Assembly (NCBI RefSeq): GCF_008919445.1
Contig: NZ_VSLG01000011.1
Location: 1 to 64,000, forward strand
Reading direction: 5' to 3'
Source: Serinicoccus kebangsaanensis
GTDB taxonomy: Bacteria; Actinomycetota; Actinomycetes; Actinomycetales; Dermatophilaceae
Length of the DNA: 64,000 nt
Shown: one piece after another, positions 1 to 64,000 of the stretch
Layout of the letters: the number at the start of each line of letters is the position of its first letter
How positions within the stretch are numbered: the stretch's first letter is position 1
The notes under the pieces: model-generated
Database searches by the model: none
Told to the model about the DNA's origin: nothing
What the model saw: the letters and a program-made list of their open reading frames with translations, nothing else
Program-made: the position numbers and the translations under genes

Positions 1-73
1 CCACCGACGCCCATCACCACAACACCGTCCAGCCGATGCGCCAACCAGCCGCGGCTTGACATAGGAGAAACGC

Positions 74-604
74 ATGGCGACACTCGTGATCACGGTCGTC
101 GGAGACGACCGCCCAGGGCTGGTCAGCGCGCTGGCCGACGTCATCGCCGAGCACGCCGGGAGCTGGGAGCGCAGCCAGCTGGCCGAGCTGGCGGGCAAGT
201 TCGCCGGGATCGTCACGGTCGACGTCCCGGACGCGCGTGCCCAGGAGCTGGTCGAGGCCATCGCGTCCTGGACCGGCGTGCTGGAGACGACCGTGCACAC
301 GGCGGCGTCGGCGGCCGCGCCCGAGGGCGAGCTGCTGCACCTCGACCTCGTGGGCAACGACCGTCCGGGGATCATCAAGGAGATCACCGGCGCCCTGGCC
401 GCGCAGCAGGTCTCGGTCGAGGACCTGCAGACCAAGGTCGTCCCGACGCCCCAGGCCGGGGGAGACCTCTTCGCCGCACGGGCCCGGCTCCGCGTGCCCG
501 AGGCTGCTGACCTCCCCGCCCTGCGGGCGGCGCTGGAGCAGCTCGCCACAGAGCTGCTCGTCGACCTCAACGTCGACTCCGACGACAGCATCGACTGGGA
601 GTGA
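74..604 (+). CDS. Tandem ACT-domain protein (GcvR-like)
   Basis: 176 aa with two ACT folds, about residues 3-80 and 88-168. Each opens with the same ligand-loop signature, GDDRPGLVSAL and GNDRPGIIKEI. Stand-alone tandem ACT proteins are small amino-acid-sensing regulators; the closest named relative is GcvR, the glycine cleavage repressor, but the ligand and partner here are unknown. There is no DNA-binding domain, so it should act through a protein partner in the cytosol. The ATG is preceded by AGGAG at a normal distance. The gene converges on the GNAT gene with a 10-bp gap. The window starts too close upstream to judge operon membership. Confidence 0.8.
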   Translation: MATLVITVVGDDRPGLVSALADVIAEHAGSWERSQLAELAGKFAGIVTVDVPDARAQELVEAIASWTGVLETTVHTAASAAAPEGELLHLDLVGNDRPGIIKEITGALAAQQVSVEDLQTKVVPTPQAGGDLFAARARLRVPEAADLPALRAALEQLATELLVDLNVDSDDSIDWE

Positions 605-614
605 CCGACCGGGG

Positions 615-1145
615 TCAGCCGCTCCCGCACTCGTGGACGTACCGGTCGCCGCTCCATCCGTCGGGCTCGGCCACGATCCCGACGTGGCGGAACCCCAGGC
701 GACGCGCGACGGCGGCCGAGGCGTGGTTGGCCGGGTCGCACCGGATGAGGAACCGCGTGACCGGTGCCTGGTCGGCCGCCAGCTGCATCGCCGCGCGCGT
801 GGCGGCGGTGGCATAGCCACGCCCCCGGCGACCGGCATACATCGTGTAGGTCAGGTTGACCTCGCCGGGCCGGAGGTAGGACAGGCCTCGCTGGATCCCC
901 ACGACCCCGACGTGCTCTCCCGTCGTGGCGTCCTCGACGGCCAGGTCCACCACGTCCGCCCCCGCGCGCCATGCGTGCGCCATCCGCTCGAGCCAGGCCA
1001 GGTGCTCCTCGGTCGTGCTGGCGCGGCCGCCGTTCACCCAGCGGTCGACGAGGTCGTCGCAGCCCGAGGCATGGGCGGCGAGGTCGTCCGGCCGCAGCGG
1101 ACGCAGCAGCACGGCTGGCTCGGGACGCGCGTCGGGGAGAGGCAC
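615..1145 (-). CDS. GNAT family N-acetyltransferase (RimJ-like)
   Basis: 176 aa. The opening LLRPLRPDD and the acetyl-CoA pyrophosphate loop [15 protein letters not shown] (about residue 107 on) are typical of the RimJ/RimL branch, which acetylates protein N-termini or small amines. The C-terminal part [14 protein letters not shown] fits strand 7 of the fold. The GTG start lies 6 nt after a TACCGT box on the same strand, so the mRNA probably begins at the start codon. The substrate cannot be predicted. It is divergent from folD, 80 bp apart, and convergent with the ACT gene. Confidence 0.82.
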
Positions 1146-1151
1146 GAGGGG

Positions 1152-1157
1152 ACGGTA
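1152..1157 (-). promoter_or_regulatory. -10 box, GNAT gene (leaderless type)
   Basis: TACCGT read on the minus strand, 6 nt before the GTG at 1145. The spacing puts the transcription start at the start codon, and no ribosome binding site is visible. Confidence 0.5.
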
Positions 1158-1212
1158 GCAACCCGTGGCGACGTGCCGCGGCCCGCGCGCCCGGTCGCCC
1201 CGTCGGCAGTCC

Positions 1213-2080: not shown

Positions 2081-2382
2081 GCCCCACGGGGGACGCCGAC
2101 GAGAGCCAGCCCCTGGTCAGCACGGGCACCCGTCCACTGGGGCCGTGGTGGCTCGCCGTGCTGGGGCTGGTGGCCGCCGGGATGCTGCTCATGTCGTCGA
2201 ACCTGCGGGCCTACGGGTATGCGCTCGGCGGCACCTTGGGGCTGCTCGCCGTGCTGCGGGCGGTGCTCCCGGCGGGCCGGGCGGGCGGACTGGTGGTCCG
2301 TGGGCGCTGGATCGACGTCCTCACCCTGCTGGTGCTGGGGGTCGCGGTGGCCGTGCTGGCCTCGACCCTGCGCCTGGTGTGA
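2077..2382 (+). CDS. DUF3017 small membrane protein
   Basis: 101 aa. A short hydrophilic N-terminus of about 24 residues is followed by three hydrophobic segments (roughly residues 27-42, 46-64 and 80-98), giving a small integral membrane protein. It starts inside the folD stop codon (ATGA overlap), so it is translationally coupled to folD. A DUF3017 protein between folD and mdh is a recurrent actinobacterial arrangement as I recall it. The function is unknown. The gene ends 18 bp before the end of the convergent mdh. Confidence 0.75.
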
Positions 2383-3564: not shown

Positions 3565-3852
3565 ATGGGACTGTTCGACCGGATCAAGGGCGTGCTCGAC
3601 GACGTCCGGGGGGCGCGGCCCGGCACCCGCACGCGACACCGGACCCCTGAGGCGGAGCCGGCGCCGTCGTCGTCACCGCACACTCCGGACCAGGTGACGA
3701 GGTATGCGACAGTCACGGTCCAGCCGGGGCAGACGCTGGCCGGCATCGCCGAGGAGCGCGGCGTCGACCTGCAGGAGATGGTGCGGCTCAACGGCATCGA
3801 GGCGCCGGACCTGGTCTTTCCGGGTCAGGTCTTCAAGCTGCCGCCGGCCTGA
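3565..3852 (+). CDS. LysM domain protein
   Basis: 95 aa. The N-terminal MGLFDRIKGVLDDVRG can form an amphipathic helix, a Pro/Ser-rich linker follows, and a single LysM fold fills about residues 46-94 (YATVTVQPGQTLAGIAEE, then FPGQVFKLPPA). LysM binds N-acetylglucosamine polymers such as peptidoglycan. There is no signal peptide or lipobox, so how it meets the cell wall is unclear, and it may act as a cytoplasmic adaptor. GAGAGGAG precedes the ATG. It is convergent with the 2H phosphoesterase gene, only 3 bp apart. Confidence 0.8.
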   Translation: MGLFDRIKGVLDDVRGARPGTRTRHRTPEAEPAPSSSPHTPDQVTRYATVTVQPGQTLAGIAEERGVDLQEMVRLNGIEAPDLVFPGQVFKLPPA

Positions 3853-5598: not shown

Positions 5599-5741
5599 GT
5601 GGTCCAGCCTGGGGCCACCAGGTATGCCGGCGGTGGACTCCGCGGGTGTGTCCGGTGGCCGCCGGGTGACCAGGGGGTGCCCCACGCCGTCCCTCATCGG
5701 ACGTCGTGGGGCCTCGGGGTGACGCGGCGCGGTGGACATCG

Positions 5742-6895: not shown

Positions 6896-7996
6896 ATGTC
6901 GGTGCCCCCGATCCCTCTGACGCTCCCACGGCGGCTGGCCGGCACGGCCGGACGACGTGCATACCGGCACCTGGGGCGTCCGGTGCTGTGGCGGATGGAC
7001 GCCGAGCGAGCGCACCACGGCACCGTGCTCGCCGCGGACCGGCTGGGCCGCACCTGGCCCACCCGGGCGCTGCTCGCCGCCGCGGGATCCGCCGTGCCGC
7101 CCGCCGCGCCGGTCGACCTGCTGGGTCTGCGCTTCCCGAACCGCGTCGGCCTGGCGGCCGGCATGGACAAGGACGGGCGGGCCGTCCCGGCCTGGGGTGC
7201 GCTGGGGTTCGGGCACGTCGAGCTGGGCACCGTCACGGCGCTCCCGCAGCCCGGCAACCCGCGACCGCGCATGGTCCGGCTGCCGGGGAGCACGGCCGTG
7301 ATCAACCGGATGGGCTTCAACAACCTCGGGGTCCAGGCCCTGGCCCAGCGGCTGCGCGAGGCGCGCGCTGCCGGGCTGGTGCGGATCCCGGTCGGGGTGA
7401 GCATCGGCAAGTCCAAGGTCACGCGGGTGGCCGAGGCGGTGCCGGACTACCTGACGTCGGTGGCCGCCCTGGAGGGCCTGGCGGACTACCTGGCGGTCAA
7501 CGTCTCCAGCCCCAACACCCCGGGGCTGCGCTCGCTGCAGGACGCCGGCCCGCTGCGGCACCTGCTCACCGCCGTCGTGGAGGCAGCGGCCGGTGTGCCG
7601 GTGCTGGTCAAGCTGGCGCCGGACCTCACCGACCAGGCGCTGGAGGAGGCCGTGGCCGTGGCCCTGGACGCCGGGGTGGCCGGCTTCGTCGCGACCAACA
7701 CCACGCTGGCGAGGGACGGCGTGGTGCCTCGTGAGGCCGCGCGGGCGCGTGCCGAAAAGGGTGGGCTGTCGGGCGCGCCGCTGACGGTGCGGGCCCGGGA
7801 GGTCGTGGCCAGGGTGCGCTCGCTGACCGACCGGCCGGTGATCGGCGTCGGGGGCGTCATGACCGGGGCCGACGCCGCGGCGCTCGTCGCGGCCGGTGCC
7901 GATCTGGTCCAGCTCTACACCGGGCTCGTGTATGCCGGGCCGGCCCTGGTGGCGGACGCGGTCGGAGCCACCACGGGCGACGCCCGGTCGGGGTGA
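6896..7996 (+). CDS. pyrD: Dihydroorotate dehydrogenase (quinone), class 2
   Basis: 366 aa. It oxidises dihydroorotate to orotate at the inner membrane, passing electrons to quinone (pyrimidine synthesis). The N-terminal extension of about 60 residues with basic amphipathic helices ([18 protein letters not shown]) is the class 2 membrane-association domain. The FMN barrel shows [40 protein letters not shown] and [14 protein letters not shown] with the class 2 catalytic serine. The last residues and the stop codon lie inside the first unit of a 32-bp tandem repeat, so the C-terminus (TTGDARSG) is repeat-encoded. Confidence 0.96.
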
Positions 7997-8123: not shown

Positions 8124-9380
8124 TTGACCACCGACGTGACCCGTCCCCTGAGCCAGACCACCACCCCGCCCGAGCCCAGCTCGCTGGCGCAGGTGCTGCG
8201 GCGGGTCGAGGAGGAGGTCGACGCCCACGCGGACGAGCTGCTCACCTGGCGGCGGGATGTGCACCAGCACCCCGAGGTGTGCTGGACCGAGCACCGGACC
8301 ACCGAGCTGGTCGCCGGCGTGCTGTCCCAGGCCGGTGCGCGCGTGCGCACGCTGCCCGGCACCGGAGCGGTCGTCGACCTGGGTCACCCGGAGCCACGGA
8401 CGCGGATCGCGCTGCGCGCCGACCTGGACGCCCTCCCCATCGAGGAGATCACCGGCCTGCCCTACGCCTCGCGGGTGCCGGGCGCCTGCCACGCCTGCGG
8501 CCACGACGTGCACACCGTCGGTCTGCTCGGCGCCGGCCTGGCGCTGCACGCCCTCGGTGACGAGCTGCACGCGCGCGAGCTCGGGGTCCGCCTCGTCTTC
8601 CAGCCCGCCGAGGAGACCCACCCGGGCGGCGCCCTGAAGGTCATGGAGCAGGGCGTGCTCGACGGCGTCGACCGGATGCTCGCGGTGCACTGCGACCCCT
8701 CGGTCGACGTCGGCAGCGTGGGGCTCCGGGTGGGGCCGATCACCGCGGCCTCCGACCAGGTGCACGTGGTCATCACCGGTCGCGGCGGGCATACCTCCCG
8801 CCCGCACCTGACCCAGGACATCACCTATGCCCTGGCCAAGGTGGTCACCGAGGTCCCGGCCGCGCTCACCCGCCGGCTGGATCCCCGGGCGGCGGCGGTG
8901 CTCGTCTGGGGGGTGGTCCGCGCCGGCGCGGCGGCCAACGTCATCCCGGCCCAGGGGGAGGCCCTGGGCACGCTGCGCATGCTGGACGCCGAGCTCTGGG
9001 AGGTGGTCGAGCCGATCTTCACCGAGACCGTGCAGGCGGTGGTGGCGCCCTACGGGGTCAAGGCCACGGTCCACTACACCAAGGGCGTGCCGCCGGTCGA
9101 CAACGAGAACAGCTCGGTCGTCGCGCTGTCCAAGGCGGCGATGATGCTCCTCGGTGCGGGGGCGGTGCAGCCGACCAAGCAGTCGATGGGCGGGGAGGAC
9201 CTGGGGTGGTACCTCCAGCAGGTCCCGGGCGCGATGGCCCGGCTGGGGACCCGCACGCCGGGTGGCCCGACCTACGAGCTGCACCAGGGCGACCTCGTCG
9301 TGGACGAACGCTCCGTCCTCATCGCCGCGAAGCTGCTCGCCGGGTCGGTGTTCACCGCCTTGAGCGAGTCACGCACGTGA
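8124..9380 (+). CDS. M20 family amidohydrolase (hippurate hydrolase-like)
   Basis: About 418 aa from the TTG at 8124, where GGAG is 7 nt away; an in-frame GTG at 8118 is too close to that site. M20D metallopeptidase-type amidohydrolases release amino acids from N-acyl or related amides. Metal ligands are in HACGHDVH (about residue 120) and PAEETHPGG (about 158); the lid domain carries the RGGHTSRPH histidine, and QSMGGEDLGWYLQ is the C-terminal ligand motif. No signal peptide is seen, so it is cytosolic. The acyl substrate cannot be inferred. It lies between pyrD and the nucleoside transporter operon without obvious linkage to either. Confidence 0.88.
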   Translation: MTTDVTRPLSQTTTPPEPSSLAQVLRRVEEEVDAHADELLTWRRDVHQHPEVCWTEHRTTELVAGVLSQAGARVRTLPGTGAVVDLGHPEPRTRIALRADLDALPIEEITGLPYASRVPGACHACGHDVHTVGLLGAGLALHALGDELHARELGVRLVFQPAEETHPGGALKVMEQGVLDGVDRMLAVHCDPSVDVGSVGLRVGPITAASDQVHVVITGRGGHTSRPHLTQDITYALAKVVTEVPAALTRRLDPRAAAVLVWGVVRAGAAANVIPAQGEALGTLRMLDAELWEVVEPIFTETVQAVVAPYGVKATVHYTKGVPPVDNENSSVVALSKAAMMLLGAGAVQPTKQSMGGEDLGWYLQQVPGAMARLGTRTPGGPTYELHQGDLVVDERSVLIAAKLLAGSVFTALSESRT

Positions 9381-10742: not shown

Positions 10743-10829
10743 GCTGTCCCCGCCACACCCCCGAGGTGCAGGCCTACCACCGCCGCCCTCGCCACCCTCC
10801 CGTGAGGTATGCATGAAGCAGGAACCGCG

Positions 10830-12503
10830 ATGAAGCTCGAACTGCAGGGCATCACCAAGGTCTTCGGGTCCTTGGTCGCCAACGACCACATCGACCTGGT
10901 GGTCGAGCCCGGCGAGATCCACGCCCTCCTGGGCGAGAACGGCGCCGGCAAGTCCACCCTGATGAACGTCCTCTACGGGCTCTACGACCCGGACGACGGT
11001 CAGATCCTGCTCGACGGCGCACCCGCGACCTTCAAGGGCCCGGGGGACGCGGTCGCGGCCGGCATCGGCATGGTGCACCAGCACTTCATGCTGGTGCCCG
11101 TCTTCACCGTGGCCGAGTCGGTCGCCCTCGGCTACGAGCCGACCGGCGCCGCGGGTGTCCTCAAGCTGGACGAGGCCCGGCGGCGGGTCACCGAGATCTC
11201 CGACCGCTTCGGCTTCCACGTCGACCCGGACGCCAGGATCGAGGACCTGCCCGTCGGCGTGCAGCAGCGGGTGGAGATCATCAAGGCGCTGTCGCGGGAC
11301 GCGAAGGTGCTCATCCTGGACGAGCCGACCGCGGTCCTGACCCCGCAGGAGACCGACGAGCTGATCGGGATCATGCGCGAGCTCAAGGAGGCCGGCACCT
11401 CCATCGTCTTCATCACGCACAAGCTGCGCGAGGTCCGGGCGATCGCCGACCGGATCACCGTCATCCGACGCGGCAAGGTCGTCGGCGAGGCCAGTCCCAG
11501 CTCCACCGAGACCGAGCTCGCCTCGCTCATGGTCGGACGCTCGGTCAGCCTCACCGTGGACAAGACCCCGGCCCAGCCGGGCGAGGCCAGCTTCGAGGTG
11601 GACGGGCTGTCCGTCATCGCCGCCAACGGCACCGTGCTCGTGGACGACATCTCCTTCGACGTCCGGGCCGGCGAGATCCTCTGCGTCGCCGGTGTGCAGG
11701 GCAACGGGCAGACCGAGCTGGCCGAGGTGATCCTCGGCATCGAGGAGGCGGACGCCGGCTCGATCCGGCTGGGCGGCGAGCCGATCCTGGGCAAGGGCGT
11801 CAAGGAGCGGCTCCGCTCCGGCATCGGCTTCGTCCCCGAGGACCGGTCCACCGACGGCGTCGTGTCCTCCTTCTCGATCGCGGAGAACCTCGTCCTCGAC
11901 CTCTACGACACCGCCCCCTTCGCCCGCGGTGTCTCGATGAGCCCCGCCACGGTGGCGGCCAACGCCGAGCAGCGCACCGAGGAGTTCGACGTGCGCTACA
12001 CCTCCGTGCACGACCCGATCTCCACGCTCTCCGGCGGCAACGCGCAGAAGGTCGTCCTGGCCCGGGAGATGTCGCGACCGCTGCGCCTGCTCGTGGCCTC
12101 GCAGCCGACGCGTGGCCTGGACGTCGGCTCCATCGAGTTCGTGCACAAGCGCGTGGTCGAGGAGCGCGACCGCGGCACCCCGGTGATCATCGTGTCGACC
12201 GAGCTGGACGAGGTGCTCGGCCTCGCCGACCGGATCGCGGTGATGTACCGCGGCCGCATCGTCGGCATCGTCGACGCCGTCGACGAGCACGGCACCCGGG
12301 TCAACCGCGACGTGCTCGGCCTGATGATGGCCGGCGTGCCGCTGGAGGACGCCCAGCAGCAGGCCGCCGAGCACCACTCGGTCCTCGGCGCGGCCGACCT
12401 GGACGGCGACGGCGTGCCGGACCACCTGCAGCGTCCCGCCGGCGAGCCCACGGGCGAGCACCGGCATACCTCCGCCCCTGCGACCACCGAGGAGCACCCG
12501 TGA
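10830..12503 (+). CDS. Nucleoside ABC transporter, fused double ATPase
   Basis: 557 aa with two ABC cassettes (about 1-235 and 250-500), like the RbsA/NupO type. Cassette 1 is canonical: GENGAGKST, signature LPVGVQQRVEI, Walker B VLILDEPTAVLTP. Cassette 2 has a degenerate P-loop (GVQGNGQTEL, no GKS/T) and ASQPTRGLD at Walker B, but an intact LSGGNAQKVVLAREM signature, so only one of two ATP sites should be fully active, as is usual in this family. The start ATG at 10830 has AGGA upstream; an in-frame ATG at 10809 is less likely. A Pro/Ala-rich C-terminal tail ends in a GTGA overlap with the first permease. Confidence 0.93.
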   Translation: MKLELQGITKVFGSLVANDHIDLVVEPGEIHALLGENGAGKSTLMNVLYGLYDPDDGQILLDGAPATFKGPGDAVAAGIGMVHQHFMLVPVFTVAESVALGYEPTGAAGVLKLDEARRRVTEISDRFGFHVDPDARIEDLPVGVQQRVEIIKALSRDAKVLILDEPTAVLTPQETDELIGIMRELKEAGTSIVFITHKLREVRAIADRITVIRRGKVVGEASPSSTETELASLMVGRSVSLTVDKTPAQPGEASFEVDGLSVIAANGTVLVDDISFDVRAGEILCVAGVQGNGQTELAEVILGIEEADAGSIRLGGEPILGKGVKERLRSGIGFVPEDRSTDGVVSSFSIAENLVLDLYDTAPFARGVSMSPATVAANAEQRTEEFDVRYTSVHDPISTLSGGNAQKVVLAREMSRPLRLLVASQPTRGLDVGSIEFVHKRVVEERDRGTPVIIVSTELDEVLGLADRIAVMYRGRIVGIVDAVDEHGTRVNRDVLGLMMAGVPLEDAQQQAAEHHSVLGAADLDGDGVPDHLQRPAGEPTGEHRHTSAPATTEEHP

Positions 12504-13813
12504 CCGAGGAGAAGCGCCCCGACGCGGGCGAGGAGCAGTCCGTCGCCGCGACCCCGCCGGGGGAGACCGGGGAGGGGCAGGGCCCCACCCTGCGCGAGCA
12601 GGAGCGACCCTCGGTGCTCTACCAGATCATGTCCGGCAGCGCCCTGATGTCGGTGCTCGCGGTCGTGCTGGCCCTGCTCATCGGCGGGCTGCTGATCGCC
12701 TTCGCCAACGAGGACACCCGCGAGGCGTCCACCTACTTCTTCGCCCGGCCCCTCGACACCCTGGCGGCCGGCTGGACGGCGATGACCGACGCCTACGTCG
12801 CGATGTTCCGCGGGTCGGTCTTCGACTGGCAGGCCGGCAGCTTCGCCGGGATGGTCAAGCCGCTGACCGAGTCGATGGTCTTCGCGGTGCCGCTGATCCT
12901 GGCCGGCCTGGGCATCGCGGTCGGCTTCCGGGCGGGGCTGTTCAACATCGGTGCGCAGGGGCAGATCATCGTCGGCGCCATCGTCGCCGCCTGGCTGGGC
13001 TTCGCCTTCGACCTGCCCGTGGTCATCCACCTGCTCGTCGCCATCCTCGGCGGCCTCATCGGTGGAGCGGTGTGGGGCGGCATACCAGGTGTGCTCAAGG
13101 CCCGCTTCGGCGCCAACGAGGTGATCGTCACGATCATGCTCAACTACATCGCGGTCTACCTCATCAGCTACATGCTCAAGCTGCCGAGCTTCAACCCCGG
13201 CCGCACCGGTCAGCGCAGCCCGGCCGTGAGCCCGGACGCGACCTACCCGCTGCTCGTGCCGCAGTGGCTCTGGCCGGACAACGGCTTCCGCCTGCACTGG
13301 GGCTTCGTGGTCGCGATCCTGGCCACGGTCTTCGTGTGGTGGCTGATGGAGCGCTCCACCGTCGGCTTCCAGATCCGCGCCGTCGGGGCGAACCCGGCCG
13401 CGGCGCGCACCGCGGGGATGTCGGTCGGACGGATCACCGTCATCACGATGGTCGTCGCCGGTGCCCTCGCGGGGCTGGCGGCCACCGGCCAGGTCCTGGG
13501 CACCGAGCGCTCGCTCACGGCGGGCGTCGCGGCGTCCTTCGGGTTCGACGCGATCACGGTCGCCCTGCTCGGTCGATCGCGCCCGTGGGGCACCTTCTTC
13601 GCCGGGCTGCTCTTCGGGGCGCTCAAGGCCGGCGGCTTCCTCATGCAGTCGCTCACGGCGACCCCGATCGACATCGTGCTGGTCGTGCAGTCCCTCATCG
13701 TGCTGTTCATCGCGGCACCACCGCTGGTCCGCACCGTCTTCCGGCTCCCGGACCCGGACCGCCGCCGCAGACCCAGGCGCACCGCCTCGACGACCCAGGA
13801 GGCCACGGCATGA
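12500..13813 (+). CDS. Nucleoside ABC transporter permease 1
   Basis: 437 aa in the BPD_transp_2 family (RbsC/NupP-like). After a cytoplasmic N-terminus of about 40 residues come roughly nine hydrophobic segments. Family motifs include IAVGFRAGLFNIGAQGQIIVGA and RAVGANPAAARTAGM, the cytoplasmic loop that contacts the ATPase. It overlaps the ATPase stop (GTGA) and runs into permease 2 by another 4-nt overlap, so the subunits are made together. With the BMP lipoprotein it forms a nucleoside importer in the cell membrane. Confidence 0.92.
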   Translation: MTEEKRPDAGEEQSVAATPPGETGEGQGPTLREQERPSVLYQIMSGSALMSVLAVVLALLIGGLLIAFANEDTREASTYFFARPLDTLAAGWTAMTDAYVAMFRGSVFDWQAGSFAGMVKPLTESMVFAVPLILAGLGIAVGFRAGLFNIGAQGQIIVGAIVAAWLGFAFDLPVVIHLLVAILGGLIGGAVWGGIPGVLKARFGANEVIVTIMLNYIAVYLISYMLKLPSFNPGRTGQRSPAVSPDATYPLLVPQWLWPDNGFRLHWGFVVAILATVFVWWLMERSTVGFQIRAVGANPAAARTAGMSVGRITVITMVVAGALAGLAATGQVLGTERSLTAGVAASFGFDAITVALLGRSRPWGTFFAGLLFGALKAGGFLMQSLTATPIDIVLVVQSLIVLFIAAPPLVRTVFRLPDPDRRRRPRRTASTTQEATA

Positions 13814-15114
13814 GCACCGCGACCCAGCCGCACCAGGCCACCCCCTCGGACGAGACGAGCGTCCAGCGGACGCGGCCGAAGGTCAGCCTGAAGTCCACGA
13901 TCGTGTATGCCCTGGCGGCGCTGGTCACCCTGCTCGCCTGGGTGCTGGACACGCCCGCCGACGCGAGGACGACCTTCCAGTTCGGCAGCAGCGGGGACCT
14001 CTTCCGCATCCCGAACGTCCCGGTGCCCGCCCTGGGCTTCCTGGTCGTGCTGCTCGTGGTGATGCTCGCGGCCACGGCCTTCTCGTTCTGGCGCTACCGC
14101 GAGCGGCGACCCCTGCCGGCGTGGGTCCACGTCGTCGTCGGCGCCTCCTTCGTGCTGGCCTTCCTGACCTTCGTCGGGGCGGGCCGGAGCACCGTCATCC
14201 CCATGGTGTCGCTGCTGGCGGGTGCGCTGGCGCTGTCGGTGCCCCTCGTCTTCGGCGCCATGTCCGGCGTGATCTGCGAGCGCTCGGGCATCATCAACAT
14301 CGCCATCGAGGGTCAGCTGCTGTTCGGCGCCTTCGCCGGTGCGGTGGCCGCCTCGGCAGCCGGGTCGGGCTACGTGGGGCTGATCGCCGCGCCGATCGCG
14401 GGCGGCCTCGTGGGCGCCGGGCTCGCGTGGTTCGCCGTGACCTTCCGGGTCAACCAGATCATCGTCGGCGTGGTGCTCAACACCCTCATCATCGGCCTCA
14501 CCGGCTTCCTGTTCTCCACCGTGCTGTCGGACAACAAGGCGCTGTGGAACACCCGCATGCCGCTGCCCCGCATCCGGATCCCGCTGCTCGCGGACATCCC
14601 GGTCATCGGGCCGGTGCTGTTCAACCAGACGATCCTGGTCTACCTCATGTACGCCCTCGTCATCGGGCTGCAGATCATGCTCTTCCGGAGCCGCTGGGGC
14701 CTGCGGACGCGCGCCGTCGGGGAGCACCCGAAGGCCGCCGACACGGTGGGCATCAAGGTCAACGTGCGCCGGGTGTGGAACACCATCCTCGGTGGCGCGA
14801 TCGCCGGGCTGGGCGGGGCGTTCTTCACCGTCGGGTCCGGTCTGGCCTTCGGCCGCGAGATGTCCGCCGGTCAGGGCTACATCGCCCTCGCCGCGATGAT
14901 CCTGGGCAAGTGGAACCCCTGGGGCGCCGTCATGGCTGCGCTGCTCTTCGGCTTCTCCAAGAACCTCGGCAACGTGCTGTCCACCATCGGCAGCGGGGTG
15001 CCCTCTGAGCTGCTGCTCATGCTGCCCTACGTCATCACCATCCTGGCCGTCGCCGGCTTCGTCGGGCGGGTCCGCCCACCCGCCGCCGAGGGCGTGCCCT
15101 ACACCAAGAGCTGA
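13810..15114 (+). CDS. Nucleoside ABC transporter permease 2
   Basis: 434 aa, the NupQ-like partner permease. A cytoplasmic N-terminus precedes about ten hydrophobic segments. The conserved CERSGIINIAIEGQLLFGAF and RAVGEHPKAADTVGIKVN loops match the family. It starts at an ATGA overlap with permease 1. Two different permeases with one double ATPase is the standard layout for BMP-type nucleoside transporters. cdd follows after 12 bp, so import and deamination are co-expressed. Confidence 0.92.
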   Translation: MSTATQPHQATPSDETSVQRTRPKVSLKSTIVYALAALVTLLAWVLDTPADARTTFQFGSSGDLFRIPNVPVPALGFLVVLLVVMLAATAFSFWRYRERRPLPAWVHVVVGASFVLAFLTFVGAGRSTVIPMVSLLAGALALSVPLVFGAMSGVICERSGIINIAIEGQLLFGAFAGAVAASAAGSGYVGLIAAPIAGGLVGAGLAWFAVTFRVNQIIVGVVLNTLIIGLTGFLFSTVLSDNKALWNTRMPLPRIRIPLLADIPVIGPVLFNQTILVYLMYALVIGLQIMLFRSRWGLRTRAVGEHPKAADTVGIKVNVRRVWNTILGGAIAGLGGAFFTVGSGLAFGREMSAGQGYIALAAMILGKWNPWGAVMAALLFGFSKNLGNVLSTIGSGVPSELLLMLPYVITILAVAGFVGRVRPPAAEGVPYTKS

Positions 15115-15126
15115 GGGAGGCATACC

Positions 15127-30558: not shown

Positions 30559-30581
30559 ACCAGCTGCTTCCGGGGCGGTGC

Positions 30582-39229: not shown

Positions 39230-39271
39230 GACCCAGAGGTATGCCGTCCCGCGCCACAGGTGCGGGGGTGC

Positions 39272-50492: not shown

Positions 50493-52408
50493 AGGTGCTC
50501 GCCCCACCAGTCGAGGATGTGCTCGAACCGCTGCATCCGGTGCCGAGGCTGGCCCGACCGGGTGAGCTCGTGCCCCTCGCCGGGGAAGATGAGCAGCTTG
50601 GTCGGGACACCGTTGCGCCGCAGCCGCGCGAACAGCCGCTGTCCCTGCTCCAGGGGGCAGCGGAAGTCCCGCTCGGAGTGGATGATGAGCGTGGGCGTCG
50701 TGATCTTGTCCGCCCACGTCAGGGGCGACTGCTCGTGCTGGTAGGCACCGGCATACTCGTCCGCGAAGAACCAGCCGATGTCGCTGGTGCCGGCGAAGGA
50801 GTCCCAGGCGTTGACCGCCCGCTCGCTGATCGCGGCGGAGAAGCGGTCGGTGTGCCCGACCAGCCAGGTGGTCATGAGGCCGCCGTAGGACCCGCCCTGC
50901 ACCCCGACCCGACCGCTGTCGAGCCCGGGCAGGGTGAGCGCGTGGTCCAGCAGGGCGGTGAGATCGGCGACGTCGACCGTGCCGATCGCCTCCTTGACCG
51001 CCCGCCCGTGGGCGGCGCCGTAGCCGGAGCCGCCGCGCGGGTTGGCCATGACGACGGCATACCCCGCGCCGGCCAGCACCTGGGCCTCGTCGAAGAGGTT
51101 GCCCGAGTACTGCGTGTACGGCCCCCCGTGGATCATCAGCACGACCGGGTGACCCGCCTTGCGACGCGCCTTCTTCGCGGGGCGGACGAGCCAGCCGTGC
51201 ACCGGGTAGCCGTCGCCGGAGGTGGCGTTCAGCTCCTCCGGCTCCAGGGGTGCGGCGGTGCCGGTGAGGTGGCTGGCGAAGTCGGTGCGCTGGGTGAGCT
51301 GCTCGCCCGGGCGGCCGACGAAGAGCTCGGAGAAGGACGCCCGCGTGCCCGCGACCGCGACGACGACGTCGGCACCGCTGGCCAGACCGGTCACCGTCAC
51401 GTTGCCGTCCAGCAGCACCTCGTCGGTGGACAGGTCGCGGACGAGCGTGTCACCACGGTGCTCGAGCGCCGCCAGGACGCGGCCGTCCGCCGTGATCACC
51501 GGGGGGCAGGCGAGGTGGTCGGTCTCGGCGTCGGTGAGCGCCACGCCCGGGCCGTCCACCCGACGCAGGACGGCGTTGCGGGCGACGAAGTCCTGCTTGG
51601 AGGGACCGAGGTCGGCCGCGCCGTAGACGGCGGTGCCGTCCCGCCCCACGTGCACTCCACCTACCGAGCTGGTGCCGTCGGTGTGCCGGCGGAACGTCCT
51701 GCCGCGCAGGTCCACCGAGCACACGTCGCTCACGAGGGTGTCCGGCGTCCAGGCGCCGCGGCGGTCGCGGGAGGCGACGAAGGCGACGCGGGACCCGCCG
51801 TGCAGGAAGACCGGGGCGGTGTCGTCACCTGCGCCGGGCGTGAGCCGGTTGCTGCTCGGGACCTCGTCGTCGGCGTCGCCGAGCTCGGAGAGGTCCAGGA
51901 GGAAGATCGAGCTCGGCCGGTCCAGGACGTAGCCCAGACCGTCCGCCCGGTAGGTGCTGTGCTCGATCAGTCGAGGAGCCTCCTGGTCCGGCTTGATGTC
52001 GTCGTCGGTGCCGTAGCGGCCCTCCTCGGGGACGCGGGCGGCATACGCGATCTGGGTGCCGTCTGGCGACCAGGCGAAGGAGCTCACGCCCAGCGCTGTG
52101 TCGGTGAGCGTGCGGGCGTCCCCGCCGTCGGCGGCCATGACGTGCAGCTGCGGAGGACCGTCCTCACCCGCACGCAGGAAGGCGAGCCGGCTGCCGTCGG
52201 GGGAGTATGCCGGTGCCGAGTCGCGCGTCGACCGCGTCAGCCGGTGGGGCTCGGCGTCGTCCTCGGTGAGGTCCAGCCGCCACAGGTCGGCGCGGTAGCG
52301 GTTGTCGTCGACGTCGGGGCGGCTGACGACGAAGACGGCGTCCCGCCCGTCCGGGTGCACCGTGGGGGAGGAGAGCGTGCGGAGCTTGGTCAGGTCGCTG
52401 GGCTTCAC
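50489..52408 (-). CDS. S9 family peptidase (prolyl oligopeptidase/acylaminoacyl-peptidase type)
   Basis: 639 aa. The N-terminal 380 residues form a WD/propeller-like domain (YSPDGSRLAFLRAGEDG, FAWSPDGTQIAYAAR) that restricts access to small peptides. The C-terminal alpha/beta hydrolase has HGGPYTQYSGNLFDEAQVLA, nucleophile GVQGGSYGGLMTTWL (about residue 505), the acid near HSERDFRCPLEQGQ and the base in FPGEGHELTRSG. Cytosolic, no signal peptide. The GTG at 52408 lies 7 nt after TAGTCT. Confidence 0.93.
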   Translation of the reverse strand: MKPSDLTKLRTLSSPTVHPDGRDAVFVVSRPDVDDNRYRADLWRLDLTEDDAEPHRLTRSTRDSAPAYSPDGSRLAFLRAGEDGPPQLHVMAADGGDARTLTDTALGVSSFAWSPDGTQIAYAARVPEEGRYGTDDDIKPDQEAPRLIEHSTYRADGLGYVLDRPSSIFLLDLSELGDADDEVPSSNRLTPGAGDDTAPVFLHGGSRVAFVASRDRRGAWTPDTLVSDVCSVDLRGRTFRRHTDGTSSVGGVHVGRDGTAVYGAADLGPSKQDFVARNAVLRRVDGPGVALTDAETDHLACPPVITADGRVLAALEHRGDTLVRDLSTDEVLLDGNVTVTGLASGADVVVAVAGTRASFSELFVGRPGEQLTQRTDFASHLTGTAAPLEPEELNATSGDGYPVHGWLVRPAKKARRKAGHPVVLMIHGGPYTQYSGNLFDEAQVLAGAGYAVVMANPRGGSGYGAAHGRAVKEAIGTVDVADLTALLDHALTLPGLDSGRVGVQGGSYGGLMTTWLVGHTDRFSAAISERAVNAWDSFAGTSDIGWFFADEYAGAYQHEQSPLTWADKITTPTLIIHSERDFRCPLEQGQRLFARLRRNGVPTKLLIFPGEGHELTRSGQPRHRMQRFEHILDWWGEHL

Positions 52409-53505: not shown

Positions 53506-54323
53506 ACCGCGATCGGGGCCTTGATCGTCGGGGCGGCGACGTAGTCCCGGACCTCGACGTCCTCGAGCTCGAAGCCGTCGATCATCGTGACCTCGGGGTT
53601 CAGCCAGAGGCTCGGCAACGGCCCCGGCGTCCTGGTCAGCTGCTCCGCGGCCTGGTCGAGGTGGTTGGTGTAGAGGTGCGCGTCACCCAGCGTGTGCACG
53701 AAGTCCTTGGCCCGCAGGTCGGTCACCTGCGCCACCATGTGCGTCAGCAGGGCGTAGGAGGCGATGTTGAAGGGGACGCCGAGGAAGGTGTCGGCGCTGC
53801 GCTGGTAGAGCTGGCAGGACAGCCAGCCGCGCTGGTCCTCGTCGCCCGGGGCCGCGGGCGCGACGTAGAACTGGAAGAGGGTGTGGCACGGCGGCAGGGC
53901 CATCGAGTCCACGTCGGCGACGTTCCAGGCGGTGACGATGTGGCGCCGCGAGTCGGGGTCGCTCCGCAGCCCCGCGACGAGCCGCTGGATCTGGTCGATC
54001 GTGCCGCCGTCCGGGGTCGGCCAGGAGCGCCACTGGTGGCCGTAGACGGGCCCGAGGTCCCCCTGCTCGTCGGCCCACTCGTCCCAGATGGTGATCTTGC
54101 GCTCCTGCAGCCAGCGCACGTTGGTGTCGCCGCGGAGGAACCAGATGAGCTCGCCGATGATGGAGCGCAGGTGCAGCTTCTTGGTCGTCAGCGCCGGGAA
54201 CCCCTCGGTCAGGTCGAAGCGCATCTGGTGGCCGAAGACCGACAACGTCCCCGTGCCGGTGCGATCCTCCTTGCGCACCCCCTCGCTGCGGATCCGCTCC
54301 AGGAGGTCGAGGTATGCCTGCAT
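53502..54323 (-). CDS. thyA: Thymidylate synthase
   Basis: 273 aa. It methylates dUMP to dTMP using methylene-THF, which ends as dihydrofolate for the adjacent DHFR. Folate/nucleotide sites: [32 protein letters not shown], active cysteine in [12 protein letters not shown] (about residue 155), [19 protein letters not shown] and HLYTNHLDQ. The ATG lies 6 nt after TACAGT. First gene of the operon with the Nudix-DHFR fusion. Confidence 0.97.
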
Positions 54324-56165: not shown

Positions 56166-58109
56166 ATGGACACGCCGGAGACGCACTACACGCGCGCCGG
56201 GGACGCCGAGATCGCCTACCAGACGTTCGGGACCGGCCCGGTCGACCTCGTGTGGGCGTTCGGGTTGATGACGCACCTCGAGGTCAAGTGGGAGCAGCCG
56301 TCGCTGGCAGACATGCTCGGGCAGCTCTCCGGCTTCAGCAGGCTGATCCTGTTCGACCGGCGTGGGTGCGGCCTGTCCGATCGTGGCGACCGCCACCTCT
56401 CGCCGACGCTGGACGAGCGGGTCCAGGACGTGCTCGCCGTGCTGGACGCCGTCGGTTCGCCGCGCGCCTCATTGTTCGGGGTGTCCGAGGGCTGTGCCCT
56501 GGCCGCCCTGTTCGCCACTCTCCACCCCCGTCGCACCGAGAAGCTCATCCTCTACGGGGGTATCTCGCGTCTGCTCCGGGACACTGCCCACCCGTGGGGC
56601 ATCTTCGATGCCGAGCAGTACGAGGCGGCCTTCGGTCCGGTCTTCCACCATTGGGGGACCGAACAAGGAGCCGTGGCTCAGGTGCGGCTGATCGCCCCGT
56701 CAGCCGTCGGTGACGCCGACTACATCTCGTGGTTCGCCAGGCAGCAGCGGCTCTCGCTCAGCCGGGACGCGGTGGTGCAGTTCATGGAGACGGCGACGCG
56801 CTACGACATCAGCGAGCTCCTGCCCGCGGTGAAGGTGCCGACACTGGTGCTCCACCGGTCCGGCGACTCCGTCGTGCCGACCAGCAGCGCCCGACGCATA
56901 GCCTCGAGCATCCCGGATGCTCGTCTGGTGGAGCTCCCCGGCGTGGGCCACCTGCCCTACATCGGTGATGCCGCGTCCGTGGTGGAAGCGATGCGCGACT
57001 TCCTCGATGTCCCGGTCCCTCACGTGCTGGTGGATCACCGTGTGGTCACCCTGCTCGCCACGGATGCGCACGGGCAGCAGGCCGCAGCCATGGTCAGGCG
57101 TTACGCCAGGCGATGGCGCGGCACGGAGGCCACCACGATGACGGGAGAGGTGGTCGTCCGCTTCGACTCGGCCACTCACGCGGTGCGGTGCGCCCTCGAC
57201 CTCGTCGACGCTGCGCGAGAGGCCGAGATGGTCTTGCGAGCCGCGGTGCATACAGGGGAGTGCGAGATCGGGGGTCAGGCTGTCGGTGGGTCCGCGTCGC
57301 ACGTCCCTGGCGCGCTGCTCCAGCACGTCGAACCCGGACACGTCGCGGCCACCGCAACCGTCAGAGATGTCGTGCCTGGGTCGGGCATGACCTTCATCGA
57401 TGAACGCCGGGTGCTCCTGACGGGGCAGACCGAGGAGATCTTCGTCACCACGGTCGCCCTGGAGCCGCCCGCTGATGCGCCGACCGCGGCCACGGGTGAG
57501 CCAGAGCACATCTTCCGACAGGATGGCGAGTACTGGACGCTCGCCTTCGAGGACCAGGTCGTGGCCGTGCGCGACAGCAAGGGGATGCACGACCTCGGCG
57601 TGCTGCTCTCGGACCCAGGTCGAGAGCGGCACGTGCTCGACCTCTGGGCGGGGCCGCACCACGCCGGCCGGGCGCACGAGGCCGGCCGGCCGCAGGAGGG
57701 CGGTGTCATGACCACACCGTCCGGAACGGCACAACCCGTGATCGACGACGAGGCCCGCTCTCGCTACCGACGCAGGCTGGTCCAGCTCGATGAGTCGATC
57801 GGGGAGGCCCGCCTGAGTGGTGGCTCGCCGGAGCGGCTCGTGGAGGAACGCGACTGGCTCGTCCACGAACTCACCGCTGCCTACGGGATCGGGGGACGCT
57901 CGCGGACGATCAACGATCCGGCGGAGAGGGCGCGCAAGGCGATCTACCGCCGGGTCACCGATGCACTGCGTCGAATCGAGAAGTCCCATCCTGCCCTCGG
58001 CAGGCACCTGCGCCACTCGGTCCACACCGGGTTCTACTGCAGCTACGCCCCCGAGCGTGAGCTGCGCTGGACCACCAACCGCGAGGGCAGCCACCGGCCC
58101 TCCGGCTGA
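56166..58109 (+). CDS. Three-domain protein: alpha/beta hydrolase, degenerate nucleotide cyclase, C-terminal regulatory domain
   Basis: 647 aa. Domain 1 (about 1-275): alpha/beta hydrolase with LILFDRRGCGLSDR, nucleophile LFGVSEGCALAALF and base PGVGHLPYIG. Domain 2 (about 283-430): class III cyclase homology (TMTGEVVVRFDSATHAV, LRAAVHTGECEIGGQAVGGSA), but the first metal-aspartate motif (FTDIVGS in active enzymes) is replaced by VVTLLATDAHGQ, so it should not make cAMP. Domain 3 (about 445-647): FRQDGEYWTLAFEDQVVAVRD, a module I associate with actinobacterial regulators, then basic helices. ATG at 56166 with GGAG 9 nt before; ATG at 56145 is the alternative. Confidence 0.8.
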   Translation: MDTPETHYTRAGDAEIAYQTFGTGPVDLVWAFGLMTHLEVKWEQPSLADMLGQLSGFSRLILFDRRGCGLSDRGDRHLSPTLDERVQDVLAVLDAVGSPRASLFGVSEGCALAALFATLHPRRTEKLILYGGISRLLRDTAHPWGIFDAEQYEAAFGPVFHHWGTEQGAVAQVRLIAPSAVGDADYISWFARQQRLSLSRDAVVQFMETATRYDISELLPAVKVPTLVLHRSGDSVVPTSSARRIASSIPDARLVELPGVGHLPYIGDAASVVEAMRDFLDVPVPHVLVDHRVVTLLATDAHGQQAAAMVRRYARRWRGTEATTMTGEVVVRFDSATHAVRCALDLVDAAREAEMVLRAAVHTGECEIGGQAVGGSASHVPGALLQHVEPGHVAATATVRDVVPGSGMTFIDERRVLLTGQTEEIFVTTVALEPPADAPTAATGEPEHIFRQDGEYWTLAFEDQVVAVRDSKGMHDLGVLLSDPGRERHVLDLWAGPHHAGRAHEAGRPQEGGVMTTPSGTAQPVIDDEARSRYRRRLVQLDESIGEARLSGGSPERLVEERDWLVHELTAAYGIGGRSRTINDPAERARKAIYRRVTDALRRIEKSHPALGRHLRHSVHTGFYCSYAPERELRWTTNREGSHRPSG

Positions 58110-61497: not shown

Positions 61498-61504
61498 GCC
61501 CACG

Positions 61505-61510
61505 ACGCTA
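61505..61510 (-). promoter_or_regulatory. -10 box, 2TM-like protein B (leaderless type)
   Basis: TAGCGT on the minus strand, 7 nt before the ATG at 61497. The divergent 61.51-61.70 kb stretch to ftsK is AT-richer than the rest, with no ORF or RNA I can support. Confidence 0.45.
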
Positions 61511-61698
61511 GGCGCACCGGGGGAGGCCGCACAGTGACAGGTGTCAGAGATCGGGGATGACACCGAATTCGACGACTGGTTCTTCTGCCATGGCGTGCAG
61601 AAGAGAGGTCTAAAAGCGGCAGGCCGCCGGCAGCAGGCGCTGGCACCGAAATCCATGCCGACGGGCGTGGGACGTCTGTGGCGCACGTGATGATTGGG

Positions 61699-61704
61699 TA
61701 CGGT
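61699..61704 (+). promoter_or_regulatory. -10 box, ftsK (leaderless type)
   Basis: TACGGT, 6 nt before the GTG at 61711. This fixes the start of the partial gene. Confidence 0.5.
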
Positions 61705-61710
61705 GCGATC

Positions 61711-64000
61711 GTGGCCAAGACTGCGACCTCCACGACCCGCGCCGGCTCCGGCGGTGCCTCACGGCGCCCCGCGAGCCGGTCGACGCCTGCCAAGGGCCGG
61801 AACGGCTCGGGCGCCAACCGCGCCAAGGCCGGATCCGCCAGGGCGGGCGGCGAGCCGTCGCTGCCCGGTCGGGCGATCCGCGGCATCGCCGGCGTCACCG
61901 GGGGCACCGTCCGGGCGATGACGGACACGGCGCACGACCTCGAGCCAGAGCACCGCCGTGACGGAGCGGGATTCCTCCTCCTGGCGCTCGCGCTGGTCGT
62001 GGCGCTGCGAGAGTGGTGGGGCCTGGACGGCTACGTCGGTGACGTCATCCACGTGGCGGCCGCAGGCACCTTCGGTCGGGTCGCGCTGGTCCTGCCCGCC
62101 GTGCTGCTCTTCTTCGCCGTGCGCCTCTTCCGCGCCCCGGGGGAGCAGCAGGCCACGAACCGGATGAGCATCGGCACCACCGCGATGCTGATCTCCGCGA
62201 GCGGCATCACCCACCTGGCCACGGGGAACCCGGACTACGCCGAGGGCTCGGGCGTGCTGCAGCGCTCGGGCGGCATCCTGGGGTTCATCGCCTCCTCGAT
62301 CCCGGCGTCCGCGATCACGGTCACCGGCGCCTACATCGTGCTCAGCCTGCTGGGGATCTTCGGCCTGCTCGTGCTGACCCGGACCCCGGTGCACCGGATC
62401 CCGGACCGCATCCGTGAGGTGGAGCAGCAGCTCTTCGACTCGGCGCGCTTCGACCGTGTCGATGCCGACGGCAACCCGCTGCCGCGCGGCCGACGGGGCG
62501 CCGGTGACGTCGACGGACCGCGTGACGGCGACGTCGCCTTCGAGCAGGCCGCCCAGGTGGACGGCGCAGGCCGGCCGCGCCGGGCGGGGCGTGCCGACTC
62601 CTCCAGGTCGCGCAGGCGGGCCACGACCGACCCGGACGCGACGGGCGACGTGCCCGCGCCGAGCGGCAGGCGCCGCGCCCAGCGCACGGACGGGGAGTCG
62701 ACCGAGGAGATCCCCGCGCTGCGCCCCGGCGAGAAGCGTCCCGCGGCGCCGAGCGTGGTGGAGAAGTCGAAGCAGGCGACCAAGACGGACCTGGAGGCAC
62801 CGCCCACCGCACAGCTCCCGCAGCGGGTCGAGCAGCTGCAGCTGGCCGGCGACGTCACCTACACCCTCCCGGAGTCCGTGCTGCTCAAGGCGGGCAGCCC
62901 GCACAAGGAGCGTTCGGACGCCAACGACAAGGTCGTCGAGGCCCTCACCGGCGTGCTCGAGGACTTCAACATCGACGCCCAGGTCACCGACTTCACCCGT
63001 GGCCCGACCGTGACGCGCTACGAGGTCGAGCTCGGCCCGGGGGTCAAGGTCGAGCGCATCACCGCGCTGTCCAAGAACATCGCGTATGCCGTCGCCAGCG
63101 CCGACGTGCGGATCCTCTCGCCGATCCCCGGCAAGTCCGCGGTGGGCGTCGAGATCCCCAACGCGGACCGCGAGAACGTCAGCCTCGGCGACGTGCTGCG
63201 CAGCCAGACGGCACGCAACAACACCCATCCGATGGTCATGGGGGTCGGCAAGGACGTCGAGGGTGGCTACGTCATCGCCAACCTGGCCAAGATGCCGCAC
63301 ATGCTGGTCGCGGGCGCCACCGGCTCGGGCAAGTCGAGCTTCGTCAACTCGATGATCACCTCGATCCTCATGCGCGCGACCCCCGACGAGGTGCGCCTCA
63401 TCCTGGTCGACCCCAAGCGGGTCGAGCTGACGGCATACGAGGGCATCCCGCACCTCATCACCCCGATCATCACCAACCCCAAGAAGGCGGCCGAGGCGCT
63501 CGCCTGGGTGGTCAAGGAGATGGACCACCGCTACGACGACCTCGCGACCTTCGGCTACAAGCACATCGACGACTTCAACAAGGCCATCCGGTCCGGCAAG
63601 GTGACCCCTCCGCCGGGGTCGGAGCGCGAGCTGACGCCCTACCCGTATCTTCTCGTGGTGGTCGACGAGCTCGCCGACCTGATGATGGTCGCCCCGCGCG
63701 ACGTCGAGGAGTCGGTCGTGCGCATCACCCAGCTCGCCCGGGCCGCCGGCATCCACCTGGTGCTGGCGACGCAGCGACCCAGCGTGGACGTCGTCACCGG
63801 GTTGATCAAGGCCAACGTGCCGAGCCGGATGGCGTTCGCGACCTCCTCGCTCGCGGACTCCCGGGTCGTGCTGGACCAGCCCGGCGCGGAGAAGCTCATC
63901 GGCATGGGTGACGCGCTCTTCCTGCCGATGGGTGCGAGCAAGACGATGCGGGTGCAGGGCTCCTGGGTCACCGAGTCCGAGATCCACGACGTCGTCGCGC
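61711..64000 (+). CDS. ftsK: DNA translocase FtsK (5' part, runs off the window)
   Basis: First 763 codons, open at the right edge, with no stop in frame. A basic Ser/Arg/Ala-rich N-terminus (1-80) precedes four hydrophobic segments (about 88-110, 118-140, 155-175 and 188-215) for the division septum, a charged linker (about 225-370) and the motor: alpha/beta domain TYTLPESVLLKAGSP and PTVTRYEVELGPGVKVERI, Walker A AGATGSGKSSF (about residue 538), Walker B LLVVVDELADLMMV. It pumps chromosome termini apart at division. The DNA-reading gamma domain is beyond the window. Confidence 0.95.
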   Translation, partial: MAKTATSTTRAGSGGASRRPASRSTPAKGRNGSGANRAKAGSARAGGEPSLPGRAIRGIAGVTGGTVRAMTDTAHDLEPEHRRDGAGFLLLALALVVALREWWGLDGYVGDVIHVAAAGTFGRVALVLPAVLLFFAVRLFRAPGEQQATNRMSIGTTAMLISASGITHLATGNPDYAEGSGVLQRSGGILGFIASSIPASAITVTGAYIVLSLLGIFGLLVLTRTPVHRIPDRIREVEQQLFDSARFDRVDADGNPLPRGRRGAGDVDGPRDGDVAFEQAAQVDGAGRPRRAGRADSSRSRRRATTDPDATGDVPAPSGRRRAQRTDGESTEEIPALRPGEKRPAAPSVVEKSKQATKTDLEAPPTAQLPQRVEQLQLAGDVTYTLPESVLLKAGSPHKERSDANDKVVEALTGVLEDFNIDAQVTDFTRGPTVTRYEVELGPGVKVERITALSKNIAYAVASADVRILSPIPGKSAVGVEIPNADRENVSLGDVLRSQTARNNTHPMVMGVGKDVEGGYVIANLAKMPHMLVAGATGSGKSSFVNSMITSILMRATPDEVRLILVDPKRVELTAYEGIPHLITPIITNPKKAAEALAWVVKEMDHRYDDLATFGYKHIDDFNKAIRSGKVTPPPGSERELTPYPYLLVVVDELADLMMVAPRDVEESVVRITQLARAAGIHLVLATQRPSVDVVTGLIKANVPSRMAFATSSLADSRVVLDQPGAEKLIGMGDALFLPMGASKTMRVQGSWVTESEIHDVVA

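Follow-up and report, generated by a model that had tools for sequence, protein, structure and literature searches.

Why should one short word recur throughout a stretch of bacterial chromosome, even where it forces rare codons on the genes it crosses? The question is raised by the first 64,000 nucleotides of contig NZ_VSLG01000011.1 of Serinicoccus kebangsaanensis (Dermatophilaceae; assembly GCF_008919445.1), the whole of which is called the window here, and in which an earlier note had seen more than 50 copies of the hexamer GTATGC/GCATAC where composition predicted some 15-20. We counted 30 + 26 = 56 copies at 72.6% GC, against 15.7 expected from base composition and 6.7 and 7.5 from order-1 and order-2 Markov models. 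The excess held genome-wide and was larger than claimed, with 1547 + 1530 copies (3,077) in the genome holding the window (G000; 3,503,838 bases in 37 contigs) compared to 242 + 231 (473) for a reversed-word control. The excess stems from selection for, or drive on, a word that is recognised, and, with a confidence that falls a little short of even, we propose from the comparisons below that this word, GGTATGCC(G), may be a genome-wide self-recognition word, akin to the DNA uptake sequences of Neisseriaceae and Pasteurellaceae.

The hexamer GTATGC is only the core of the real unit, GGTATGCC(G), an octamer to nonamer, as the 7- and 8-mers in greatest excess in the window were extensions of GTATGC: under the order-2 Markov model GTATGCC stood at 47 against 2.5, GTATGCCG at 34 against 1.1 and GGTATGCC at 28 against 1.1, with 47 of the 56 window copies in the GTATGCC form and 19 in the GGTATGCCG form. 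Within a 464-kb sample of G000, 395 copies of GTATGC were preceded by G in 275 cases and followed by C in 344 and then by G in 238. In this sample GGTATGCC reached 44 times the frequency given by a first-order model and its one-base variants GGTAGGCC, GGTATGTC, GGTATGAC, GGTATGCA and GGTATGCG 3-6 times; its first position was loose (T 17-fold, A 12-fold and C 5-fold over the same model). Over the whole of G000, GGTATGCC occurred 894 + 870 times (1,764), and its reversed-word control 4 + 6 times (10). The word is not palindromic (by inspection, against GGCATACC), and its density was about 0.7-1.2 copies per kb.

Codon bias was ruled out as the cause of the excess. Open reading frames (ORFs) were called by our own script (longest ORFs with high G+C at third codon positions), without a gene finder, and synonymous codons were shuffled within each gene for the 316 ORFs of the G000 sample. 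Against this codon null GTATGCC was observed 287 times where 33.2 +/- 5.6 were expected, and GGTATGCC 198 times where 17 +/- 4 were expected, which upholds the earlier view that the word overrides codon preference. About 40% of the sites at which GTATGCC was synonymously possible were filled (310 of 797 in the G000 sample; 280 of 662 in the sample of G007, a closed genome and, with 2,180 copies, the richest in the word of those surveyed). None of the six reading phases lacked filled sites, the filled share ranging between 25% (Ala-Tyr) and 59%. Copies inside called ORFs made up 287 of 344, with 275 expected.

The spacing of the copies depended on their relative orientation. Scored with GTATGCC (longer forms gave the same sign with a weaker neighbour correlation: z of -2.2 in G000 and -3.1 in G007 for GGTATGCC, and of -2.6 and -1.7 for GTATGCCG), neighbouring copies were opposite in orientation in 216 of 344 pairs in G000, 219 of 333 in G007 and 30 of 46 in the window. 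This excess alternation results from a deficit of same-orientation neighbours: relative to expectation, same-orientation pairs at 0-200, 200-400 and 400-600 bp had ratios of 0.26, 0.44 and 0.71 (G000) and 0.22, 0.49 and 0.73 (G007), returning to about 1 by about 1 kb in both, and opposite-orientation pairs closer than 1 kb stood at 0.8-1.6 of expectation. The comEC neighbourhoods of 23 other genomes that use the word gave 21 same-orientation pairs within 800 bp, compared to 44 expected. A stricter null was drawn 300 times from synonymously possible sites with gene strand and phase kept; same-orientation pairs within 800 bp again fell below expectation in G000 (48 against 75), in G007 (42 against 74) and in G056, a genome rich in the one-base variant GGATGCC (24 against 41), each count lying below all 300 draws, and opposite pairs were at 92 against 87, 98 against 88 and 45 against 37, respectively. 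In all, same-orientation copies excluded one another in four of six samples, with a reach of about 0.5-1.5 kb, and opposite copies were not excluded.

Control words, chosen by hand, mostly behaved differently. Orientation correlation was clearly positive in four of eight and near zero in the other four; in three of three further words same-orientation neighbours outnumbered opposite ones; and of another four, three were near zero and one, GTCGACC, alternated through overlapping copies of its palindromic core. Even spacing irrespective of strand was ruled out, as the coefficient of variation (CV) of all gaps was 0.98 in G000 and 0.90 in G007, which is near random. Taken per strand, the CV fell to 0.92 in G000, 0.75 in G007 and 0.73 in G056, and the evenness thus belongs to the single strand, if only slightly in G000; mean same-strand gaps were 1.9-2.5 kb. 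Pairs closer than 60 bp were inverted in two of three cases in G000 (323 gaps) and nine of 12 in G007 (318 gaps), and terminator-like inverted pairs were rejected as an explanation because such close pairs are too few. Neither strand was favoured. Twenty spaced regions of the closed G007 chromosome held 168 plus and 170 minus copies with no run of biased regions, and its two halves as deposited, with the origin not located, held 80:84 and 88:86; the 464 kb of G000 held 174 plus and 170 minus copies of GTATGCC.

To place the word among relatives we surveyed 117 genomes of the order, 71 of them from the family of G000, probably Dermatophilaceae in the GTDB sense, and 46 from other families. The RNase J of G000 had its best named matches in Ornithinimicrobium tianjinense (88%) and O. 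cavernae (82%), which would make the genus most likely Ornithinimicrobium. Fifty-three of the 71 family genomes carried at least 137 copies of GGTATGCC and are called users; the remaining 18, called non-users, carried fewer than 90, none fell between, and the 46 genomes of other families carried 3-123. Only one of 31 genomes in the genus of G000 lacked the word (G023, 38 copies). Around RNase J genes a form of the word was the top 8-mer or among the top ones in Ornithinimicrobium (two loci), Terrabacter (three), Tetrasphaera (two) and Arsenicicoccus (one), and was not over-used in Janibacter (three loci), Piscicoccus, Phycicoccus sp. HDW14, Kribbia, Humibacillus and a further Dermatophilaceae genome.

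Individual copies were retained between orthologous genes of users. We compared 11 of the 16 ORFs of the comEC locus (those present in at least eight genomes) in 25 users and nine non-users, at sites with identical amino acids only. Exact GTATGCC was kept in 446 of 774 user comparisons and in two of 168 non-user comparisons, counts drawn from 20 alignment columns for users, 10 for non-users, and from comparisons that are not independent; in gene pairs below 70% protein identity it was kept in 182 of 299 and one of 137, respectively. At sites where one user could carry GTATGCC and did not, the other user had it in 13.6% of 2,408 comparisons. Where it was replaced at orthologous user sites, CTACGCC, GTACGCC, GTATGCG, GTAGGCC and CTATGCC mostly stood in its place, with single changes at positions 1, 2, 4 and 7.

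The word has at least one one-base dialect among relatives, with losses in some genomes. GGATGCCG, one base off GGTATGCC, reached 3,949 copies in G056 and 3,816 in G046, both of them non-users, and was also rich in G106 (4,491) and G090 (1,548), which belong to another family, and in G031 (1,336), with at most 1,027 copies in the remaining 112 genomes surveyed. Judged by the codon null, it led all 8-mers in the G056 sample (141 against 28) and the G031 sample (81 against 29) and stood at expectation in G000 (46 against 51) and G007 (42 against 41). In G056 its same-orientation pairs were again too few (42 against 70, with a minimum at 600-1500 bp), and 129 neighbours were opposite and 64 the same; when CGGATGCC and GGATGCCG are scored jointly in this genome, a single site is counted double and a spurious excess arises at distances under 200 bp.

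The strand-specific redundancy suggests a reader that works on a single strand, or with a single direction, across a range of several hundred bases up to about 1 kb. If a second nearby copy adds nothing in the same orientation but does so in the opposite one, reading would take place on one strand only, such as an imported single strand, and two machines would fit: import of single-stranded DNA, with the word as an uptake signal, or resection of double-strand ends, with the word as a Chi. Of several directional DNA-processing roles an uptake-like one is judged most likely from the sequence comparisons, being favoured by the density of the word, its dialects, its lack of polarity and the presence of ComEC, a ComEA-like match and TadE. 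ComEC was found in 66 of the 71 family genomes, the five misses falling in assemblies that are incomplete or badly fragmented; beside comEC a ComEA-like match was present in 34 of 34 loci examined, with SLBB and helix-hairpin-helix domains in G000; and TadE was found in 70 of 71. In the actinobacterium Micrococcus luteus, Tad pili together with ComEA/EC are reported to serve transformation (PMC4322843). By the mechanism we propose, a candidate DNA receptor of a ComEA/ComEC/Tad-pilus competence system would prefer word-bearing DNA, DNA of kin would be imported and recombined more often, and the word would accumulate wherever protein sequence permits.

The resemblance to the DNA uptake sequences (DUS) and uptake signal sequences (USS) of the two Gram-negative families is in part close. 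Here too the word is short, asymmetric and over-represented beyond codon use; it lies on both strands without chromosomal bias, as is reported for uptake sequences (PMC1939737); it has one-base dialects and relatives that lack it, as described for DUS (PMC3630211); and the genomes hold competence genes. Karlin and colleagues are reported to have remarked on how evenly uptake sequences are spaced (cited in PMC1939737). Unlike those systems, the host is a high-GC Gram-positive mostly without type IVa pili, same-orientation copies exclude one another and opposite ones do not, close inverted pairs are few, and both receptor and uptake preference are here putative.

Several results weigh against the uptake reading. 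No gene whose distribution follows that of the word came to light: PilM (as a marker of type IVa pili), ComEC, RecC and TadE were all rejected as correlates of its presence, and since ComEC and ComEA were equally common in genomes without it, the competence genes of carriers are not diagnostic. PilM was found in just four of the 71 family genomes, two of the matches being weak, so that the known ComP-type receptor route is mostly unavailable. In H. influenzae the uptake sequence is reported to work equally well in either orientation (PMC1939737), which gives no reason to expect strand-specific exclusion. The exclusion itself was at most a trend for GGATGCCG in G106 (221 against 240 +/- 14.5, not significant) and was absent for the weaker GGATGCCG excess of G031 (14 against 13.9), and an unrelated word of G067, CGAAGGGG, had a weaker same-strand deficit of its own (45 against 63 +/- 7), by which the spacing signature may not be specific to GTATGCC.

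The chief alternative, which we regard as unlikely yet worth serious weight, is a Chi-like signal at which AdnAB, or another helicase-nuclease, would change its activity in one orientation, each end of a break needing its own. The word is like Chi in being an asymmetric, over-used octamer with a strand-specific logic and related spellings in relatives, and such a signal would predict directly the redundancy of same-strand copies, as well as a scarcity of the word in prophage and its independence from competence genes. Its over-use, however, seems stronger than that known for Chi, and mycobacterial AdnAB is not known to respond to Chi. AdnAB is reported only from Actinobacteria, where RecBCD seems not to be used for homologous recombination (PMC6452273), and the Chi words of Proteobacteria are reported to have related spellings (PMC8022716), both of which fit. 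The same source makes polarisation on the leading strand part of the working definition of Chi, whereas our word has no strand polarity along the chromosome (168:170 in G007, origin not located), and RecBCD does not track it, RecC being found in 35 of 53 users and nine of 18 non-users. A factor for nucleoid structure, segregation or replication that binds the word on one strand would likewise account for the strand-specific spacing, in which same-strand copies stand 1.9-2.5 kb apart on average, and the word resembles KOPS (FtsK-orienting polar sequences) in being an asymmetric octamer found all along the chromosome. KOPS point toward the terminus, and KOPS-like segregation signals and lagging-strand priming signals alike should be replication-polarised; as no strand polarity was seen, both are disfavoured, and we consider a directional role of this kind improbable.

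Explanations from methylation or mutation fare worse. The earlier note had offered deamination of a 5-methylcytosine in GTACGC, or else selection for a bound motif; selection fits the data, with GGTATGCC(G) and not the hexamer as the motif, but deamination does not. GTACGC is scarce, as had been suspected (seven in the window against 41.7 by base composition, 19.7 by order-1 and 22.8 by order-2 Markov models; 30 against 240 in G000 ORFs under the codon null), and a mutational origin, by deamination or biased mismatch repair, draws some support from this scarcity and from that of GTAC, clearest in the genus of G000 (0.37 of order-2 expectation in G000 and 0.41 in G007, against 0.73-0.93 in five other sampled genomes). 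GTACGC is scarce because GTAC is avoided in every context, at 222 against 827 overall, with all 16 following dinucleotides below expectation (0.11 to 0.83) and the least avoidance before TC (GTACTC 80 against 96). Conversion of GTACGCC cannot supply the copies, since GTATGCC and GTACGCC jointly number 307 where the codon null expects 141, and copies of GTATGC that lack the following C are no commoner than expected (35 against 37). Mutation at one base is further contradicted by the single changes at several positions of orthologous sites, same-orientation exclusion has no mutational reading, and the enzymes do not track the word: a C5-methylase match was present in 36 of the 71 family genomes and absent from G007, the richest user, and from G022, G028, G029 and G030, and the MutS domain PF01624 was absent from 42 of 42 genomes tested, users and non-users alike. 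We give a mutational origin next to no credence. The cyanobacterial HIP1 (highly iterated palindrome 1) would be the model for a word maintained by a methyltransferase of its own or by mismatch repair that methylation directs. HIP1 too is an extremely iterated octamer, and it is reported to be over-used, to give way to alternate words in some relatives and to be linked with methyltransferases (PMC4390886). Unlike HIP1, GGTATGCC is no palindrome, none of three methylase families (one searched on 71 genomes and two on 42) tracked it, and the users G001 (817 copies) and G012 (1,207) had no match to PF00145, PF01555 or PF02384, the three families searched; with MutS absent as well, we think this very improbable.

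If the word does mark self-DNA for uptake, it would be a third case in which mate choice by sequence has arisen in DNA exchange, one working with Tad pili and mostly without type IVa pili, and its dialects would separate related genera of Actinobacteria; if AdnAB reads it, it would be a Chi for AdnAB. The strand-specific exclusion is a quantitative signature that separates models of word accumulation and can be searched for in the classical systems. We know of uptake sequences only from two Gram-negative families, and to our knowledge neither sequence-specific self-recognition for Tad/ComEA/ComEC transformation nor a Chi-like signal for AdnAB has been described before. In the open-licence literature of PubMed Central GGTATGCCG, GTATGCCG, CGGATGCCG, CGTATGCCG, GTATGCC and GGATGCCG were not found as whole words, nor was GGTATGCC, which was looked for only beside two common words; no report of an uptake sequence in Actinobacteria was found in the open literature, judged by titles and the beginnings of abstracts.

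Possibly, though we would sooner doubt it than assert it, a family-wide and perhaps class-wide set of dialects (GTATGCC, GGATGCC and perhaps GTACGCC) marks self-DNA for a strand-specific step in high-GC Gram-positives, which would be either a new Tad/ComEA/ComEC self-recognition or a Chi-like signal for AdnAB. GTACGCC was the top 7-mer under the codon null at single Marmoricola and Nocardioides loci (23 against 5.8 and 21 against 5.0) among the loci listed. CGTACGCC reached 3,461 copies in G284 and 3,398 in G148 among 296 genomes of the class, and in certain genomes from other orders (G284, G148 and G176, families f45 and f29) its density came to about 0.5-0.85 per kb. As a third spelling CGTACGCC/GTACGCC is a lead only, since it holds a palindrome and preferred codons and since close pairs of the GTACGCC-type word in G054 were in excess in both orientations (65 against 41 for the same and 90 against 43 for opposite). 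The samples of two further non-users were led by other words under the codon null, CGTACGTC and CGTACGCC in G054 and CCCCTTCG in G067. The over-use of CCCCTTCG/CGAAGGGG in G067 amounted to 132 against 29 under the same null, in a lineage without GTATGCC, and CCCCCTTC occurred eight and 16 times against about one in the Janibacter loci L024 and L031, also from lineages without GTATGCC.

The comEC match was split into two parts some 40 kb apart in two species of the genus, G018 (C46:68541-108976) and G002 (C1:1161212-1201313). The G018 insert is a prophage, with terminase, portal and tape-measure genes among the proteins tested (three of five), and one of five proteins tested from the G002 insert matched a phage family of unknown function. 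GTATGCC occurred twice in the 40.4 kb of the G018 insert, compared to seven times in 19.6 kb of flank, and four times in the 40.1 kb of the G002 insert, compared to eight times in 19.9 kb of flank. These densities lie near the codon-null background, which is about 3.5 copies in 40 kb: the inserted DNA neither shuns the word nor has gathered it, as expected for a slowly accumulating host signal. The prophage inserted in comK of Listeria is a parallel to the split comEC. In G023 a nearby contig end truncates the comEC match. Two repeats of another kind were seen, both perhaps interspersed: CGTTTTAC in L089, from an uncultured Nesterenkonia (seven against 0.01), and ACCTAGGG/AAACCTAG in L023, from a metagenome-assembled genome of Dermatophilaceae (nine and eight against 0.2 and 0.04).

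Within the window, the coordinates given in the earlier note agreed with ours to within one base apart from 12474, correctly 12464, and its rare codons were confirmed, by arithmetic against called ORFs, at eight of the ten places it had named, the other two, 13905 and 63084, lying where no ORF was called. The eight were ATA in Gly-Ile-Pro at 13081, 42070 and 43719 (GGTATGCCG copies 13078..13086, 42068..42076 and 43717..43725, all minus strand), GCA before Tyr in Ala-Tyr at 41069 and 46493 (GGTATGCCG, 41068..41076 and 46492..46500, minus) and at 44711 (AGTATGCCG, 44709..44717, minus), CAT in His-Thr (GGTATGCCG, 12462..12470, minus) and TAT in Tyr-Ala at 15187 (CGTATGCCC, 15185..15193, plus). 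Further GGTATGCCG copies lie on the plus strand at 5621..5629, 22559..22567, 34498..34506, 39238..39246, 42505..42513, 43159..43167, 45798..45806 and 48549..48557, and on the minus strand at 16721..16729, 19114..19122, 37972..37980, 41823..41831 and 51055..51063. The word also occurs as TGTATGCCG at 7929..7937 and 19264..19272 (plus) and 833..841, 19408..19416 and 23806..23814 (minus); as GGTATGCCC at 22760..22768, 24222..24230, 28817..28825 and 32024..32032 (plus) and 8787..8795 and 30553..30561 (minus); as AGTATGCCG at 44271..44279 and 52204..52212 (plus) and 21553..21561, 44122..44130 and 50749..50757 (minus); as CGTATGCCG at 63083..63091 (plus) and 23270..23278, 52039..52047 and 63431..63439 (minus); as TGTATGCCC at 13904..13912 and 17615..17623 (both plus); as GGTATGCCT at 54311..54319 (plus) and 15118..15126 (minus); and, on the plus strand, as GGTATGCCA at 41194..41202 and TGTATGCCA at 42232..42240. 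Partial copies are GGTATGCGC (2216..2224), GGTATGCGA (3701..3709), GGTATGCAT (10806..10814), GGTATGCAG (16348..16356) and TGTATGCGG (36648..36656) on the plus strand, TGTATGCAC (57246..57254) on the minus strand, and GGTATGCAC at 27224..27232 and 37888..37896 (plus) and 6957..6965 (minus). At 13813-15127 and 61686-63639 the ORF caller placed no gene, yet copies of the word stand there at 13904, 15118, 63083 and 63431.

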